Assembly: GCF_000154985.1 (NCBI RefSeq)
Contig: NZ_DS572685.1
Span: forward strand, 1 to 48,146
Origin: Streptococcus infantarius subsp. infantarius ATCC BAA-102
GTDB taxonomy: Bacteria; Bacillota; Bacilli; Lactobacillales; Streptococcaceae
DNA length: 48,146 bases
Direction: 5' to 3'
The notes beneath the pieces were generated by a model. It was not told the DNA's origin. It did no database searches and saw nothing but the letters and a program-made list of their open reading frames with translations. This document shows, piece by piece, positions 22,364 through 29,491 of the stretch. A program made the position numbers and the translations under genes. The number at the start of each line of letters is the position of its first letter. The first letter of the stretch is position 1.

Positions 22364-23662
22364 ATGATCGATCGTTATTCACGCCCTGAGATGGCGGCAA
22401 TTTGGAGTGAAGAAAATAAATACAAAGCTTGGCTTGAAGTTGAAATTTTGGCTGACGAAGCATGGGCTGAACTAGGCGAAATTCCTAAAGAAGATGTCGC
22501 TAAAATCCGTGCCAATGCAAGCTTTGACGTTGACCGTATCTTAGAAATCGAACAACAAACACGTCATGACGTTGTTGCCTTCACACGTGCTGTTTCTGAA
22601 AGTCTTGGCCAAGAACGTAAATGGGTTCACTATGGTTTGACATCAACTGACGTTGTTGATACAGCTTACGGTTACCTTTACAAACAAGCTAACGAAATCA
22701 TCCGCAAAGATTTGCATAATTTCCTTGAAATCATTGCTAACAAAGCTAAAGAACATAAATTCACTATCATGATGGGACGTACTCACGGTGTCCACGCAGA
22801 ACCAACTACATTTGGTTTGAAATTGGCAACATGGTACAGCGAAATGAAACGTAACATCGAACGTTTCGAACATGCTGCTGCTGGTGTCGAAGCTGGTAAA
22901 ATTTCAGGTGCTGTTGGTAACTTCGCTAACATTCCACCATTTGTTGAAGCTTATGTGTGTGAAAAACTTGGTATCCGTGCTCAAGAAATTTCAACGCAAG
23001 TACTTCCACGTGACCTTCACGCAGAATACTTCGCTGTTCTTGCTAGCATCGCAACATCAATCGAACGTATGGCAACTGAAATCCGTGGTCTTCAAAAATC
23101 TGAACAACGTGAAGTTGAAGAATACTTTGCTAAAGGCCAAAAAGGTAGCTCGGCTATGCCTCACAAACGTAACCCAATCGGTTCAGAAAATATGACAGGT
23201 CTTGCGCGTGTTATCCGCGGTCACATGGTAACAGCTTACGAAAACGTGTCACTTTGGCATGAACGTGACATCTCACACTCATCTGCTGAACGTATCATCT
23301 CACCTGATACAACGATCCTTATCGACTACATGCTTAACCGTTTCGGAAACATCGTTAAAAACTTGACTGTTTTCCCAGAAAACATGATTCGCAACATGGG
23401 TTCTACTTTTGGACTTATCTTCAGCCAACGTGTTATGCTTAAATTGATTGAAAAAGGTATGACACGTGAACAAGCTTACGACCTTGTTCAACCTAAGACA
23501 GCTTACTCTTGGGATAACCAAGTTGACTTCAAACCACTTCTTGAAGCTGATGAAGAAGTCACTTCACGTTTGACTCAAGACGAAATCGATGAATTGTTTA
23601 ACCCATCTTACTACACTAAACGTGTTGATGAAATCTTTAACCGTATTGGTTTAGGAGATTAA
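22364..23662 (+). CDS. purB: Adenylosuccinate lyase
   Basis: 432 aa. Cleaves SAICAR to AICAR and adenylosuccinate to AMP. Seen: [17 protein letters not shown] terminus, [16 protein letters not shown] with the catalytic His, and the flexible signature loop [16 protein letters not shown]. The ATG fits the family N terminus exactly, but no ribosome binding site lies just before it. A strong AAAGGAG occurs some 45 bp upstream, followed by a five-codon ORF (ATG at about 22343). Translation may be coupled or the leader may be structured. Ends the second pur unit. Confidence 0.96.
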
Positions 23663-23676
23663 TTTAGTCAAAAAAA

Positions 23677-23708
23677 GTGCCTGAGACGAAAGTCTTGGGT
23701 ATTTTTTA
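23677..23708 (+). terminator. purB terminator
   Basis: Arms GCCTGAGAC and GTCTTGGGT (several wobbles) around GAAA, then ATTTTTTATC. Confidence 0.75.
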
Positions 23709-23820
23709 TCAAATTTTTTATTAGAAAATTTGTTATTTTTAATGAAAATAGTTTATCAAATGAAAGCGGTATGTTAAAATATGAAATAAGCAGATTTTTT
23801 TAATAAAACAGGAGATTGAA

Positions 23821-24729
23821 GTGGAAAAATTTGGGGAGAAGATCCGCTTGATGCGGGAGGAAAAGGAAATCTCACGTGAAGAATTCTGTGGGGATGAAAC
23901 AGAATTATCGGTAAGACAATTAGCTAGAATTGAGTTGAACCAATCAATACCCAATCTCAGTAAAGCAAGCTTTATTGCCAATCGTCTGGGAGTGAAATTA
24001 GGTACTTTAACTGATGGTGACAGTTTAGAATTACCTAAGCGGTATAAAGAGTTGAAGTATTTACTTCTTCGAACACCTACATATGGAGACCAGGTACGAC
24101 TTGATCGAAAAAATGACTATTTTGATGAGATTGCTGAAGTATTTTATGATGTTATTCCAGAAGAAGAACGGTTAATCATTGATTGTTTACAATCAAAATT
24201 CGATGTTCATTTTAGTGAAGATGTCAATTTTGGAGAGGGTATTTTAAATGATTATTTTGGTCAAGTTAATCGAAAGAAAGTTTTTACCATTAATGATTTA
24301 ATTTTGATTGATCTTTATTTTGCTTGTCTTTCTTCTGCTAAGAAGTTTGAAGGAATTTATAGTTTGGATTTTTACGATGATTTGATGAAAAGGTTGGTAA
24401 ATCAAAAGCATGTTTCACCTGAGACTGATTTAATTTTAAATAATGTATTGTTAAATAATATTGACTTAGCATTCCAATTTAAGCGAGAATATTATATTGA
24501 GCGTGTTATTACAATCAGTGAAAAAATTATGACAGAGATTCATGATTTTCAACGTCGTCCGATTTTAAGTTTGGTGGAGTGGAAGTATTATTTGAAACTT
24601 AAACATGACTTTGCTTTAGCAGAACAGTCATTTACGAATGCAACATTATTTGCACGATTGGTTGGTGATACTTATTTAGAAAATAAACTTAAAGAAGAAT
24701 GGCAACTTGATATTGATGCTGTGGAGTAG
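23821..24729 (+). CDS. comR: Competence regulator ComR (Rgg family, XRE-type HTH)
   Basis: 302 aa, close to the about 300 aa I expect for ComR. Residues about 5-60 form the HTH (GEKIRLMREEKEISREEFCG ... QLARIELNQSIPNLSK), followed by a helical TPR-type C-terminal domain that binds the imported pheromone. ComR with XIP activates comS and comX (sigX). GTG start with AGGAG upstream. Located between purB and ruvB, the place of comR in pyogenic, mutans and bovis group streptococci. Identity is supported by the adjacent ComR box and comS. The promoter region has TTAAAAT at about 23774 and a weak cre-like stretch at 23760-23776. Confidence 0.92.
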   Translation: MEKFGEKIRLMREEKEISREEFCGDETELSVRQLARIELNQSIPNLSKASFIANRLGVKLGTLTDGDSLELPKRYKELKYLLLRTPTYGDQVRLDRKNDYFDEIAEVFYDVIPEEERLIIDCLQSKFDVHFSEDVNFGEGILNDYFGQVNRKKVFTINDLILIDLYFACLSSAKKFEGIYSLDFYDDLMKRLVNQKHVSPETDLILNNVLLNNIDLAFQFKREYYIERVITISEKIMTEIHDFQRRPILSLVEWKYYLKLKHDFALAEQSFTNATLFARLVGDTYLENKLKEEWQLDIDAVE

Positions 24730-24746
24730 TTTGTGTAGATAATAAA

Positions 24747-24780
24747 AACAACATGACATTTTTGTCATGTTGTTTTTTCT
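24747..24780 (+). promoter_or_regulatory. ComR box (comS operator) that also forms the comR terminator
   Basis: Perfect 12-bp arms AACAACATGACA (24747-24758) and TGTCATGTTGTT (24763-24774) around TTTT contain the ComR-box core GACA-N4-TGTC with flanking AACA/TGTT. TTTTTTCTT follows. The same DNA is therefore a good intrinsic terminator for comR and an operator-plus-T-tract for comS; TACAAT at 24791-24796 is the likely -10. Confidence 0.88.
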
Positions 24781-24831
24781 TCGAACCATTTACAATAATA
24801 TTAGAAATTAGAGAAAGGGAAGAAGGAGCAA

Positions 24832-24879
24832 ATGTTAAAGGGATTTACGGTTTTATTGACAGCCTGGTGGGGATTGTAG
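24832..24879 (+). CDS. comS: ComS, precursor of the XIP competence pheromone
   Basis: A 15-codon ORF, MLKGFTVLLTAWWGL, too short for usual gene calling. AAGGAG ends 3 nt before the ATG, within a purine-rich leader. It lies 60 bp past a perfect ComR box, directly after comR. The C-terminal LTAWWGL contains the double-Trp signature of type II ComS; I recall exactly this heptapeptide as the XIP of S. infantarius. After export, processing and Ami/Opp import it would bind ComR and switch on comX and comS. Identification: sequence plus established family knowledge. Confidence 0.92.
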   Translation: MLKGFTVLLTAWWGL

Positions 24880-24918
24880 ACTGTTATCAAAACAATTCAC
24901 TGACAGCTCTTGTTTTGG

Positions 24919-24924
24919 TATAAT
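24919..24924 (+). promoter_or_regulatory. -10 element for ruvB
   Basis: TATAAT sits 6 bp before the ruvB start, so the leader would be very short unless ruvB is also reached from comS. The adjacent ATCAAAACAA...TTGTTTTGGT arms could form a hairpin. Confidence 0.45.
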
Positions 24925-24930
24925 AAGGCT

Positions 24931-25929
24931 ATGAATAGAATTTTAGATAATGATATCATGGGTGACGAAGAATTTGTGGAACGTACGCTTCGTCCTCAAT
25001 ATTTAAAAGAATATATTGGACAGGATAAGGTTAAAAATCAGCTGAAAATTTTTATTGAAGCAGCAAAATTACGTGATGAATCACTTGACCATGTGCTATT
25101 GTTTGGCCCTCCGGGTCTTGGTAAGACGACAATGGCATTTGTGATTGCTAACGAATTAGGGGTGAATCTCAAACAAACATCTGGGCCAGCAATTGAAAAA
25201 GCTGGTGATTTGGTTGCTATTTTGAATGATTTGGAACCTGGGGATGTTTTGTTTATCGATGAAATTCACCGTATGCCAATGGCGGTAGAAGAAGTGCTCT
25301 ATAGTGCGATGGAAGATTTCTATATTGACATTATGATTGGTAATGGTGAGACTAGTCGTAGTGTCCATTTGGATTTGCCACCTTTTACGCTAATTGGAGC
25401 AACAACTCGAGCAGGAATGCTTTCGAATCCGTTGCGTGCGCGTTTTGGAATTACGGGGCATATGGAATATTATGCGGTTGACGATTTGACAGAAATTGTT
25501 GAACGTACAGCTGATATTTTTGAAATGGAAATCGTGCATGAAGCTGCACAAGAATTGGCGCGACGTAGCCGAGGTACACCACGTATTGCCAACCGTTTGT
25601 TAAAACGGGTTCGTGACTATGCTCAAATTATGGGTGATGGTATTATTACAAAAGATATTACAGATAAAGCTTTAACAATGCTGGATGTCGATCATGAAGG
25701 GCTTGATTACATTGACCAAAAAATCTTGCGTACTATGATTGAAGTTTATAATGGTGGTCCAGTTGGTTTGGGAACTCTATCTGTTAATATTGCTGAAGAG
25801 CGTGATACGGTTGAGGATATGTATGAACCTTATTTGATTCAAAAGGGTTTTATTATGCGTACACGTACAGGTCGTGTAGCTACAGCTAAAGCATATGATC
25901 ATCTGGGGTATCCTTATGCTGAAAAATAA
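24931..25929 (+). CDS. ruvB: Holliday junction branch migration ATPase RuvB
   Basis: 332 aa AAA+ motor that drives branch migration with RuvA. Seen: Walker [10 protein letters not shown], Walker B FIDEIHRM, sensor [10 protein letters not shown], and the C-terminal winged helix with [10 protein letters not shown]. The ATG at 24931 gives the family N terminus (MNRILDND); an upstream in-frame start at 24910 overlaps the promoter and is rejected. Following comRS, it can be reached by read-through of the competence promoter. Confidence 0.96.
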
Positions 25930-25937
25930 AATATTAT

Positions 25938-25970
25938 CTTAAGGAAAGTTTAAGCAAGTCTTTATATACT
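25938..25970 (+). promoter_or_regulatory. CiaR-type promoter of csRNA B
   Basis: CTTAAG-N5-TTTAAG (25938-25954), then 10 nt, then TATACT (25965-25970). Spacing and -10 are identical to those of csRNA A. Confidence 0.78.
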
Positions 25971-25976
25971 ATAACT

Positions 25977-26037
25977 ATCCTAAAACTTTTCTTTTTCATA
26001 ATCTCCGGAAAGAACCTTGGTTTTCCAAGGTTTTTTC
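25977..26037 (+). ncRNA. Candidate cia-dependent small RNA (csRNA) B
   Basis: About 60 nt: an unpaired part containing CTAAAACTTTTCTTTTTCAT followed by AATCTCC, then a terminator with arms AACCTTGG and CCAAGGTT around TTTT and a T tract. The unpaired part is complementary to a GGAG-ATT-ATG-AAAAAG translation start. I recall csRNA genes near ruvB in pneumococcus. Twenty-eight bases are perfectly repeated, inverted, in csRNA C. Start site inferred from the promoter. Confidence 0.78.
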
Positions 26038-26101
26038 TTTGTTTTATAAATGGCCATGGAGTGTGGTATAATTGAGAAAAAGTGCTTATAGGAGCAAGAT
26101 T

Positions 26102-26633
26102 ATGGAATTAGAAGTTTTACGAAAAGATATGATTGTTAGTCAGAGAAAAGGGCAACCTTTTATTGTTACGTCCACCATCATCTGGGTTTCAATAACTTTG
26201 GTAACTATGATGAAGGTATCGCTACCTGTCCAAAATCTTTTGATTTTTTTATTGTTCATGTCCATTGTTGCCACTCTCTTGGTTTGTTGGGAAATGGCTG
26301 AATGTTGATATCTTCTCCAAAGAAAATCTATTAACGAACCTAGGTTTCTTATTTACCTGTAACCAATTGATTTATTTATTGATTGTTATGTGGGTCTTTA
26401 GTGCGGTACCTGAAAAAATGCTTATGGTTTATACAATGGTTTTTGGAGCGCATCTTTTACCCTATTCATGGCGATATAAATCAAGAACATATTTTGTTTT
26501 TGCTATTTTGATTCCGATACTTGCGCTTGTCTTAGGTCACATGGCGAGCATGACTTATCTTAGTTTAGTGATGGTATTTTTAGAAATTGTTTTTGCCATG
26601 TTACTACAAGTTGAACTAAATGCGAATAAATAA
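26102..26633 (+). pseudogene. DUF7010-like membrane protein, frameshifted
   Basis: ATG at 26102 with GGAGC upstream opens MELEVLRKDMIVSQRKGQPF, a short cytoplasmic start and a first membrane segment. At a run of seven T (about 26243-26249) the frame is lost (stop 26308), and the rest continues in the +1 frame (LPLSWFVGKWLNVD ... VELNANK, stop 26633). Removing one T rejoins them into a protein of about 176 aa with four to five membrane segments. The FTCNQLIY and GAHLLPYSWRYK segments suggest the DUF7010 family, from memory. Function unknown. Sequencing error cannot be excluded. Confidence 0.72.
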
Positions 26634-26639
26634 TTAAAG

Positions 26640-26665
26640 GTTCTTAGTTGTCTAAGAACTTTTTA
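26640..26665 (+). terminator. Terminator after the DUF7010-like gene
   Basis: Arms GTTCTTAG (26640-26647) and CTAAGAAC (26652-26659) around TTGT, then TTTTTAT. Confidence 0.85.
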
Positions 26666-26733
26666 TAAAAAACGAGAGAGCCCCGCAAGCGGAGCCCTCT
26701 CAGGAGATTATGAAAAAGAAAAGTTTTAGGATT
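26666..26733 (-). ncRNA. Candidate cia-dependent small RNA (csRNA) C, minus strand
   Basis: Read on the minus strand the element repeats the csRNA plan: predicted start at about 26733, the same CTAAAACTTTTCTTTTTCAT and AATCTCC segment as csRNA B, then a GC-rich terminator (26674-26701, GAGAG/CTCTC with an inner CCGC/GCGG stem) and a U tract. It converges on the DUF7010-like gene and is opposite in direction to csRNA B. Confidence 0.78.
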
Positions 26734-26739
26734 GTCTAT

Positions 26740-26772
26740 ATTGTATGCAGTCAGGCTTAATTTTTTCTTAAA
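26740..26772 (-). promoter_or_regulatory. CiaR-type promoter of csRNA C
   Basis: Minus strand TTTAAG-AAAAA-ATTAAG (26772-26756), then 10 nt, then TACAAT (26745-26740). Same geometry as csRNA A and B promoters, with one half-site mismatch. Confidence 0.75.
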
Positions 26773-26871
26773 GTCGACAGATAAGGGAATTTACATGTGA
26801 TAAGACTTCTTTTTTGTTATAATGATAAAAGAAGTTTTAAACAATCAGTTACTGACTATGTAGGAGAGAAC

Positions 26872-27303
26872 ATGAAAAAAGTTTGTTTTGTTTGCTTAGG
26901 AAATATTTGTCGTAGTCCAATGGCTGAGTTTGTGATGAAAGATTTGGTTACTAGTGAAAATCTATTAATTGAAAGTCGTGCGACTTCTAACTGGGAACAT
27001 GGAAATCCTATTCATCACGGGACACAAGGTATTTTTAAAAAGCATCATATTGCTTATGATTATCAAAAATCATCACAACAGATTTCTTATCAAGATTTTC
27101 GAGATTTTGATGTCATCATTGGGATGGATACGAATAACGTGGCAGATTTAAAAGAAATGTCACGATGACGATTTGATGAAAAAATCTTTCTTTTTGTAGA
27201 TGGTGGTGTACCAGATCCATGGTTTACAGGTGATTTTGATGCTACCTATGAGTTGGTTAAGTGTGGCTGTGAACAATGGCTAGCGCGACTAAGAAATTCT
27301 TAA
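26872..27303 (+). pseudogene. Low-molecular-weight protein tyrosine phosphatase, in-frame stop
   Basis: ATG at 26872 (TAGGAGAG upstream) starts MKKVCFVCLGNICRSPMAEF, which contains the complete active-site P loop CLGNICRS. The frame is interrupted by TGA at codon 99 (27166-27168) after DLKEMSR, then continues in the same frame with RFDEKIFLFVDGG and VPDPWFTGDF, carrying the general-acid Asp motif DPW, to a TAA at 27303. Total 143 codons, normal for the family. A single G to T change (GGA to TGA) would explain it. The truncated product lacks the general acid and is expected to be inactive. Confidence 0.85.
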
Positions 27304-27320
27304 AGAGAAGTTGAGTAAAA

Positions 27321-27701
27321 ATGAAAAAAATCAAAATAACCAGAGGACGTCTTGAGCTTCTGACGGTTTTAATTCTTATCATTTGTGGTTTGTCGGTCTT
27401 TACTTTATCGGTAAAATCAAAGACAACCTTAACGTATGACAATGGCAAAATCACGTACACGGGTTATGTGGTCAATCACCGTATGAATGGTCAAGGTAAG
27501 TTGACTTATGAAAATGGGGATTGCTACGAAGGTAATTTTAATGATGGTGTGTTTGAAGGTCAGGGCGTCTTTACTTCACATTCTGGTTGGATTTATAAAG
27601 GTGGATTTAAAAATGGTCAACCAGATGGTGAAGGCACTCTAACAGCACAAAATGGTAAGGTATATACAGGAACCTTTAAACAGGGGATTTTTCAAAAATG
27701 A
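27321..27701 (+). CDS. MORN-repeat protein with N-terminal membrane anchor
   Basis: 126 aa. One membrane segment at about residues 12-30, preceded by positively charged residues, then about four MORN repeats (YTGYVV..., YEGNFNDGVFEGQG, YKGGFKNGQPDGEG, YTGTFKQG) exposed outside. Such small MORN proteins sit beside the OatA-type acyltransferase in several streptococci; function unknown. The TGA stop overlaps the next ATG (27698), so the pair is translationally coupled. Confidence 0.85.
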   Translation: MKKIKITRGRLELLTVLILIICGLSVFTLSVKSKTTLTYDNGKITYTGYVVNHRMNGQGKLTYENGDCYEGNFNDGVFEGQGVFTSHSGWIYKGGFKNGQPDGEGTLTAQNGKVYTGTFKQGIFQK

Positions 27702-29491
27702 GAATAAAATGGTTTTCAATGGTTAGGGTAATTGGGCTTTTCCTAGTTCTGCTCTATCATTTCTTTAAAACGGCCTTTCCAGGCGGTTTTATCGGTGTTG
27801 ACATTTTCTTTACTTTCTCAGGGTATTTGATTACAGCTTTGCTAATTGATGAGTATTCGAGAAACAAGAAAATTGATCTTTTAGGATTTTATAAGAGACG
27901 TTTTTATCGGATTGCTCCACCGCTAATTTTGATGATTTTGATTGTCATGCCATTTACTTACTTGGTTCGTAGAGACTATGTGGCAAGTATTGGTAGTCAA
28001 GTGGCTGCAGCAATTGGTTTTACAACAAATTTCTTTGAAATTATCACAGGTGGTAATTACGAAACGCAATTTATCCCACATCTCTTTGTTCACACGTGGA
28101 GTTTGGCAATTGAGATGCATTTCTATTTAATCTGGGGATTCATAGTTTGGTTATTGGGAAGACATCAGGATAATTTGGCAAAATTCCGTAGTTTGATTTT
28201 TGCGATTTCGGCAGCCTTTTTTGCTGGAAGTTTCCTAACGATGTTTGTCCGAGCTTTCTTCGTTGATAATGTTTCAACGATTTACTTCTCATCTTTGACG
28301 CATAGTTTCCCATTCTTCTTAGGGGCTATGGCGGCGACGATGACTGGTATCAGAGAAACAACTATTCGTTTTAAAAAGAATGTTCGCTTGTGGTCTACAA
28401 AACGTAGTATCGTCACAATGCTAGTGAGCGCAGCTCTCTTAGTTTTATTGATGTTTACTTTGAAATTTGACCAACGCATCACTTATTTATTTGGATTTGT
28501 TTTAGCAAGTTTATTTGCTACGGTAATGATTTATGCGGCGCGTGTCCTAAATGACCAAACGCCAAATGCAAAAGAATCTGCTATTATCAACTATTTAGCT
28601 GATGTTAGTTATGGTGTTTATCTTTTCCACTGGCCATTTTACATTATCTTTACACAGTTGATGTCAAATGGATTTGCTGTTGTGCTGACGGTTATTCTAT
28701 CGTTGGTATTTTCAACCTTATCTTATTATGTGATTGAACCATTTCTTGCTGGTAAGCCAGTTAAACTATTTGGTATTTCTTTGGATTTATCTCCTTATAA
28801 GAAATGGCTATATGGTAGCTCAGCTGTTTTAGCTTTGATAACTTTGATAACTGTTGCTACAGCACCAGCTATGGGGAATTTTGAAACAGGGCTCTTGGTT
28901 AACTCACTACAACAAGCTCAAACGAATTTGAATCGTACGCATACTGTGACAGCTGGTGATGCGGGAGCTTTAAGTGATGTAACTGTGATTGGAGATTCTG
29001 TTGCACTACGTTCAAGTGCTGCATTCTCAAGCCTGCTTCCTAATGCTCAATTAGATGCAGCGGTAAGTCGTAGTTTTGACAATGCGTTTGAAATTTTTCA
29101 AAATGAGATTTCGAGTGGAACACTTTCTAAGACAACAGTGCTTGCAATTGGTGTAAATTCACTCGACCATTATCAAGAAGACATTCAACAATTTATTGAT
29201 GCTTTGCCAGATGGTTATCGCTTGATTATTGTGACACCATATAATGCTAGCGATAAAGCGAAAGTTAAGCAGGCGCGTGATTATGAATTGAGTTTACCGA
29301 AAACGTACAATTACATTACTATTGCTGATTGGTACAAGACAGCAACGAGTCATCCAGAAATTTGGAATGGTACTGACGGTGTTCACTACAGTGATGCTAA
29401 TACGACAGGTGCTGACCTCTATGTTAAAACTATTCAAAAAGCAATTGATAAATCTGCTAAGAGACCTGCCAAAGGTGAATCTAATAGTTAA
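27698..29491 (+). CDS. Membrane O-acyltransferase with SGNH domain (OatA-like)
   Basis: 597 aa. Residues about 1-390 are an acyltransferase-3 domain with about ten membrane segments (GLFLVLLYHFF with the conserved His, FTFSGYLIT, HTWSLAIEMHFYLIW). After the last membrane segment (about 370-390) comes an extracellular SGNH esterase-like domain with the block I Ser in VIGDSVALRSS, the block III Asn in AIGVNS and the block V Asp-His pair in GTDGVHYSD. This architecture transfers acetyl groups to peptidoglycan muramic acid (lysozyme resistance) in OatA; activity on peptidoglycan is inferred. Coupled to the MORN protein upstream. Confidence 0.88.
   Translation: MRIKWFSMVRVIGLFLVLLYHFFKTAFPGGFIGVDIFFTFSGYLITALLIDEYSRNKKIDLLGFYKRRFYRIAPPLILMILIVMPFTYLVRRDYVASIGSQVAAAIGFTTNFFEIITGGNYETQFIPHLFVHTWSLAIEMHFYLIWGFIVWLLGRHQDNLAKFRSLIFAISAAFFAGSFLTMFVRAFFVDNVSTIYFSSLTHSFPFFLGAMAATMTGIRETTIRFKKNVRLWSTKRSIVTMLVSAALLVLLMFTLKFDQRITYLFGFVLASLFATVMIYAARVLNDQTPNAKESAIINYLADVSYGVYLFHWPFYIIFTQLMSNGFAVVLTVILSLVFSTLSYYVIEPFLAGKPVKLFGISLDLSPYKKWLYGSSAVLALITLITVATAPAMGNFETGLLVNSLQQAQTNLNRTHTVTAGDAGALSDVTVIGDSVALRSSAAFSSLLPNAQLDAAVSRSFDNAFEIFQNEISSGTLSKTTVLAIGVNSLDHYQEDIQQFIDALPDGYRLIIVTPYNASDKAKVKQARDYELSLPKTYNYITIADWYKTATSHPEIWNGTDGVHYSDANTTGADLYVKTIQKAIDKSAKRPAKGESNS

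Follow-up and report, generated by a model that had tools for sequence, protein, structure and literature searches.

A probable type-II ComRS quorum-sensing locus between purB and ruvB in Streptococcus infantarius

The window analysed here is a stretch of 48,146 nt from Streptococcus infantarius subsp. infantarius ATCC BAA-102 (contig NZ_DS572685.1, positions 1 to 48,146 of the forward strand). A sequence-only reading had placed comR, a perfect ComR box, a -10 element and a tiny ORF in that order between purB and ruvB. When re-derived, this arrangement proved exact to the base, on the + strand, and the coordinates and peptide (LTAWWGL, from a 15-codon comS at 24832-24879) were correct on re-reading. 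The features are:

22364..23662, + strand: purB, the upstream neighbour (TIGR00928, E 5.3e-170)
23810..23814, + strand: AGGAG, ribosome-binding site of comR (from the sequence; at the equivalent position in oriented relatives)
23821..24729, + strand: comR, predicted XIP-sensing HTH/TPR activator, 302 aa, GTG start (PF18710 ComR_TPR)
24744..24777, + strand: perfect palindrome with 15-bp arms and a 4-nt loop around the ComR box; hairpin-forming, a possible comR terminator
24755..24766, + strand: ComR-box core, GACATTTTTGTC (from the sequence; also precedes comX in the relatives G001 and G097)
24791..24796, + strand: -10 element TACAAT, 36 nt past the core start
24823..24828, + strand: AAGGAG, likely comS ribosome-binding site, 3-nt spacer (from the sequence)
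24832..24879, + strand: comS, ATG at 24832 to stop, 15 codons, encoding MLKGFTVLLTAWWGL (from the sequence; conserved in relatives)
24856..24876, + strand: codons of the predicted XIP heptapeptide LTAWWGL (tabulated for S. infantarius in PMC13361665)
24896-24924: promoter-like site before ruvB (promoter scan)
24931..25929, + strand: ruvB, ATG at 24931, 51 nt past comS (NF000868, E 2.9e-156)

The palindrome begins 14 nt, and the box core 25 nt, past the comR stop codon. One position needs correcting: a transcript had been anticipated from 24791 onward, where the -10 element starts; the comS transcript is expected to begin about 7 nt past 24796. With 15 codons, comS is of a size easily overlooked by gene finders. 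The order purB-comR-comS-ruvB is common to other bovis-group loci.

The comR product matches the ComR_TPR family (PF18710) with 225.3 bits in a Pfam search (cut-off 26.5), and HTH_19 with 30.4 bits (cut-off 30.2). A PDB search matched it to the solved ComR chains 5fd4 (E 6.8e-58), 6hu8, and 5jub, which we take to be from S. suis, the S. salivarius group, and S. thermophilus, respectively. Among close relatives, which have the GTG start and AGGAG site in common, the protein is 99% identical to that of G097 and 95% to that of G001 (DNA identities 99.2 and 95.9% for comR, 99.0 and 92.0% for 24730-24930); overall, these two genomes are about 96-97% identical to the window. Functional residues were taken from the available text of PMC5131891, numbered by S. 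thermophilus ComR, the alignment to the 5jub chain being ungapped over the stretch used. Eight of the 12 are the same in both proteins: R35 and R39, the arginines that contact DNA; T90 and K100, which contact the peptide; E117, E118, and D147, which sequester the HTH domain; and Y91. The other four are changed (R51 to Lys, K87 to Arg, R92 to Gly, E146 to Asn); the Gly in place of R92 is also present in chains 5fd4 and 6hu8.

The tiny ORF had been credited with the double-tryptophan signature of XIP precursors, and this is borne out: it is the sole frame with a WWGL end among the 1134 stop-ended small frames (10-40 aa) of the window, and WW within the last six residues likewise occurs once in 1134. 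Forty base shuffles of the window gave WW in 43 of 56,155 small frames, and a WWGL end in none of them. The sequence MLKGFTVLLTAWWGL is common to the window, G097, and S. equinus Sb05 (L003). Aligning comS with bovis-group genomes, as the sequence-only reading had proposed, shows identical DNA in G097 and two codon differences in S. equinus Sb05, both synonymous. S. equinus Sb04 (L001) retains LTAWWGL after a different N-terminus; variant ends are found in G001 (LTGWWGL), S. equinus ATCC 9812 (L002; LTSWWGL), and S. vicugnae (L017; LTGWWFG).

A comR match was found in 112 of 147 genus genomes. Among the 48 loci examined, which represent only the best-ranked matches and include several genomes twice, 46 have a box followed by a small ORF with a WW end. 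In 43 these lie past comR and share its strand (the script found 41; at the other two, L017 and L035, its motif missed comR, but the box starts just past the comR match), and in three they lie upstream on the opposite strand. At the remaining two (L053 and L055) the script found no box with a recognised WW-ended target. The arrangement is beyond chance. The three opposite-strand cases (S. hyointestinalis B19, or L005; L034; and L033, from G056) have a comS ending in GLGWWGL; L034 appears to be the same genome as L005. Genome G141 has a second comR-like gene adjoining the first.

The GACA-N4-TGTC box of comS lies at a fixed spacing from the -10 element with a T-rich spacer between them, as described for S. 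salivarius ComR promoters, which have a T-rich spacer and a constant distance (PMC6703854, available text). The core start lies 36 nt from the -10 in 36 of 37 distinct comS boxes (41 nt in the remaining one) and in all 20 distinct comX boxes (from the 23 of 35 comX loci with a recognised target). These counts come from a repeat of the search that did not filter on spacing; an earlier listing required the best -10 to be at offset 35-37, left out 24 loci by design, and held 32 unclassified rows. The script recognised no target at two of the 48 comR loci and 12 of the 35 comX loci, although some of these 12 (e.g., L093, L096, and L105) show a box in the filtered listing.

The 12-base core alone was rejected as proof, occurring four times within the window. 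A mismatch-tolerant search of G001 (up to three mismatches) gave 94 matches, vs. 40 for a reversed control pattern, and these are mostly noise: inspection took in the exact site and four sites with one or two mismatches (L022/L025, L023, L024, and L026), which lie in or beside unrelated genes, and left out four further two-mismatch sites. Both G001 comX sites were found among the three-mismatch rows.

Neither comX nor the late competence genes fall within the window; they were observed in related genomes only. A comX match was found in 121 of 147 genus genomes, of which the best-ranked loci were examined. G001 and G097 each have two copies, each directly after a tRNA-Asn gene and each with GACATTTTTGTC placed 36 nt before TATAAT. 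A full comX is present in four of six bovis-type genomes (G001, G097, G062, and G139); in the same search G089 gave just a piece of 31 residues and G038 no match, both being multi-contig assemblies. The gene was named by homology among streptococci, position, and the ComR box: its only family-library match is a weak one to sigma-70 (E 0.0012, below the cut-off), and searches found no Pfam family and no meaningful PDB match.

Taken with the same box before comX in relatives, the anatomy, conservation, spacing, and ComR family membership seen in the window point to a type-II ComRS quorum-sensing locus of a bovis-group Streptococcus, with a probability of about 0.94. By analogy with published systems, the comR product would be a cytoplasmic HTH/TPR activator and the comS product a 15-residue precursor, presumably exported by PptAB and trimmed to its C-terminal heptapeptide, LTAWWGL, the putative XIP. 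XIP would be re-imported through an oligopeptide permease and bound by ComR, which would then dimerise on the GACA-N4-TGTC box; this box would replace a -35 element. ComR would thus activate comS, in a positive feedback loop, as well as comX elsewhere in the genome, and SigX would in turn drive the DNA-uptake genes and, by analogy with the literature, transformation. Genes of the EcsB/PptB and OppA types are present in both G001 and G097; these are family matches, and do not prove XIP transport.

The claim that the strain carries an intact sensing module stands; its extension to natural transformation we only infer, since comX and the late genes are not in the window. Four families of late uptake genes were searched for in two relatives, G001 and G097. 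A comGA-type ATPase, dprA, and coiA are present in both, the main matches being free of stops, while comEC, a single 743-aa frame in G001, is broken in G097 into two (262 and 478 aa), with one in-frame TGA inside the domain match (L075). Since G097 also has the nearest comRS found, an intact sensing module does not by itself show transformability. One alternative is therefore that the locus is intact yet vestigial, with XIP sensed and comX induced but transformation failing through a broken late gene. The interrupted comEC of G097 is the kind of lesion this would call for; comEC is, however, uninterrupted in G001, and transformation of S. infantarius is reported to be induced by its synthetic cognate XIP (PMC5131902, available text). 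We consider this alternative quite unlikely for the strain, which on the type-II ComRS reading would be equipped for natural transformation.

The regulator could alternatively govern chiefly a trait other than competence, such as bacteriocins: the ComR paralogs ScuR and SarF of S. salivarius mainly control functions other than competence (PMC6703854, available text), and many genus genomes have two or more comR-like matches. G001 and G097, however, have just one each, with comX in both preceded by the same box at the same spacing, and the position between purB and ruvB is common to other bovis-group loci, making this highly improbable. That the small ORF is open by chance alone, the palindrome being a comR terminator and nothing else, is barely credible: the core does recur in the window and the hairpin is terminator-like, but position, WW end, and 36-nt spacing are conserved, codon changes in relatives are synonymous, and LTAWWGL is already tabulated as an XIP (PMC13361665, available part).

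Within the ComRS locus, the operator itself may have a second function. RNA folding of 24735-24785 gives -19.5 kcal/mol (z -6.07), and besides the palindrome no stem found in 24690-24960 exceeds 8 pairs; as judged from this fold, the hairpin could end the comR transcript. A scan for consensus terminators gave none in 23600-25050 (0.4 expected), leaving the comS operator hairpin uncalled, probably because the fully extended stem uses up most of the T's. The 51 nt from comS to ruvB contain no terminator-like hairpin. A promoter scan of the region gave nine promoter-like sites, little different from the 7.3 expected by chance; one of them, at 24896-24924, may be a promoter for ruvB. The comS transcript of S. 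mutans continues through SMU.63-SMU.68 (PMC5069739, available text); given this precedent and the lack of a hairpin after comS, expression of ruvB may be raised together with that of comS.

These observations suggest a scheme in which the comS operator of S. infantarius and S. equinus would be a dual element, its palindrome, with arms of 12-15 bp that run into T's, being both a ComR operator and a comR terminator insulating comS from read-through, with ruvB joining the comS transcript; boxes at comX would be weaker, and comS autoinduction would precede comX. The arms of the comS palindrome are 12-15 bp in L001, L002, L003, L019, and L028, while the comX boxes of G001 and G097 have 4-bp arms and show a GGACA asymmetry. 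Genus-wide, comS arms are modestly longer than those of comX (36 vs. 13 distinct boxes from the filtered listing; Mann-Whitney p 0.028, uncorrected for relatedness). Arguments against the scheme are that comX arms of the G139 type are 10 bp, equal to many comS arms, and that in many relatives (among them L001, L002, L004, L030, and L031) the core starts before comR has ended and shares bases with its stop codon (gap -2), so that the left arm is coding there. These two points weigh against the dual role, which we regard as doubtful. No description of an operator/terminator overlap was found in the literature passages searched, subscription papers being largely outside their reach. This overlap, and read-through from comS into ruvB, would be small, testable additions to the known system.

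The system itself is already known and its peptide already published; nothing about it is new. A 2026 review (PMC13361665, available part) tabulates LTAWWGL for five strains of S. infantarius as their ComS 9-15 peptide, citing Morrison et al. (2013, J Bacteriol); this XIP is the same as that of the window, and no difference from the published S. infantarius ComRS was found in the text available. Two ComR alleles are reported for S. bovis, and their XIPs differ at the fifth residue counted from the C-terminus, which is either Ala or Ser; both alleles respond well below 1 nM, and are promiscuous to other XIPs (PMC5131902, available text). We read this pair as that of LTAWWGL and LTSWWGL. In S. 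macedonicus and S. gallolyticus a type-II WWGL peptide also follows comR (ITGWWGL and VITGWWGL, in the available part of PMC13361665), but has Ile-Thr-Gly rather than the Leu-Thr-Ala of the window; the ComR of G139, which has ITGWWGL, is 71% identical to that of the window. A literature search found no paper dealing jointly with SigX, lutetiensis, and XIP.

A search for TNCGAATA, which we take to be the SigX-box consensus, found none between purB and comR, and five in the window as a whole (5.6 expected). In S. mutans UA159, purB likewise lies upstream of comR and a ComR-box inverted repeat precedes both comS and sigX (PMC5519730, PMC5069739, available text). The comR of S. mutans is preceded by a SigX box, whereas S. 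bovis is stated to have none (PMC5519730, available text), as is the case for the purB-comR gap of the window.

The neighbourhood beyond ruvB has some features of its own. A DUF7010 gene (26072-26633) is broken into two frames both here and in G097, while L001, L003, and L017 have it as a single frame of 175-186 aa. It is flanked by a 39-nt inverted repeat (25974-26012 and 26697-26735, 92% complementary), which looks like a small repeat element. A low-molecular-weight phosphotyrosine phosphatase gene follows (26797-27168), encoding 123 aa and covering 96 of 144 profile positions; in G097 it encodes 168 aa. Across 24000-28000, identity per kb is 98.1-99.5% to G097 and 93.8-96.8% to G001, but elsewhere in the window some stretches are closer to G001; this mosaic of identities suggests homologous recombination, which may have included the comRS pherotype (LTA vs. 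LTG).

The locus is thus complete but ordinary, the standard bovis-group switch from a self-made peptide to DNA uptake. Its presence means that the strain can probably sense XIP, and LTAWWGL is the exact peptide with which induced transformation could be tried as a genetic tool.
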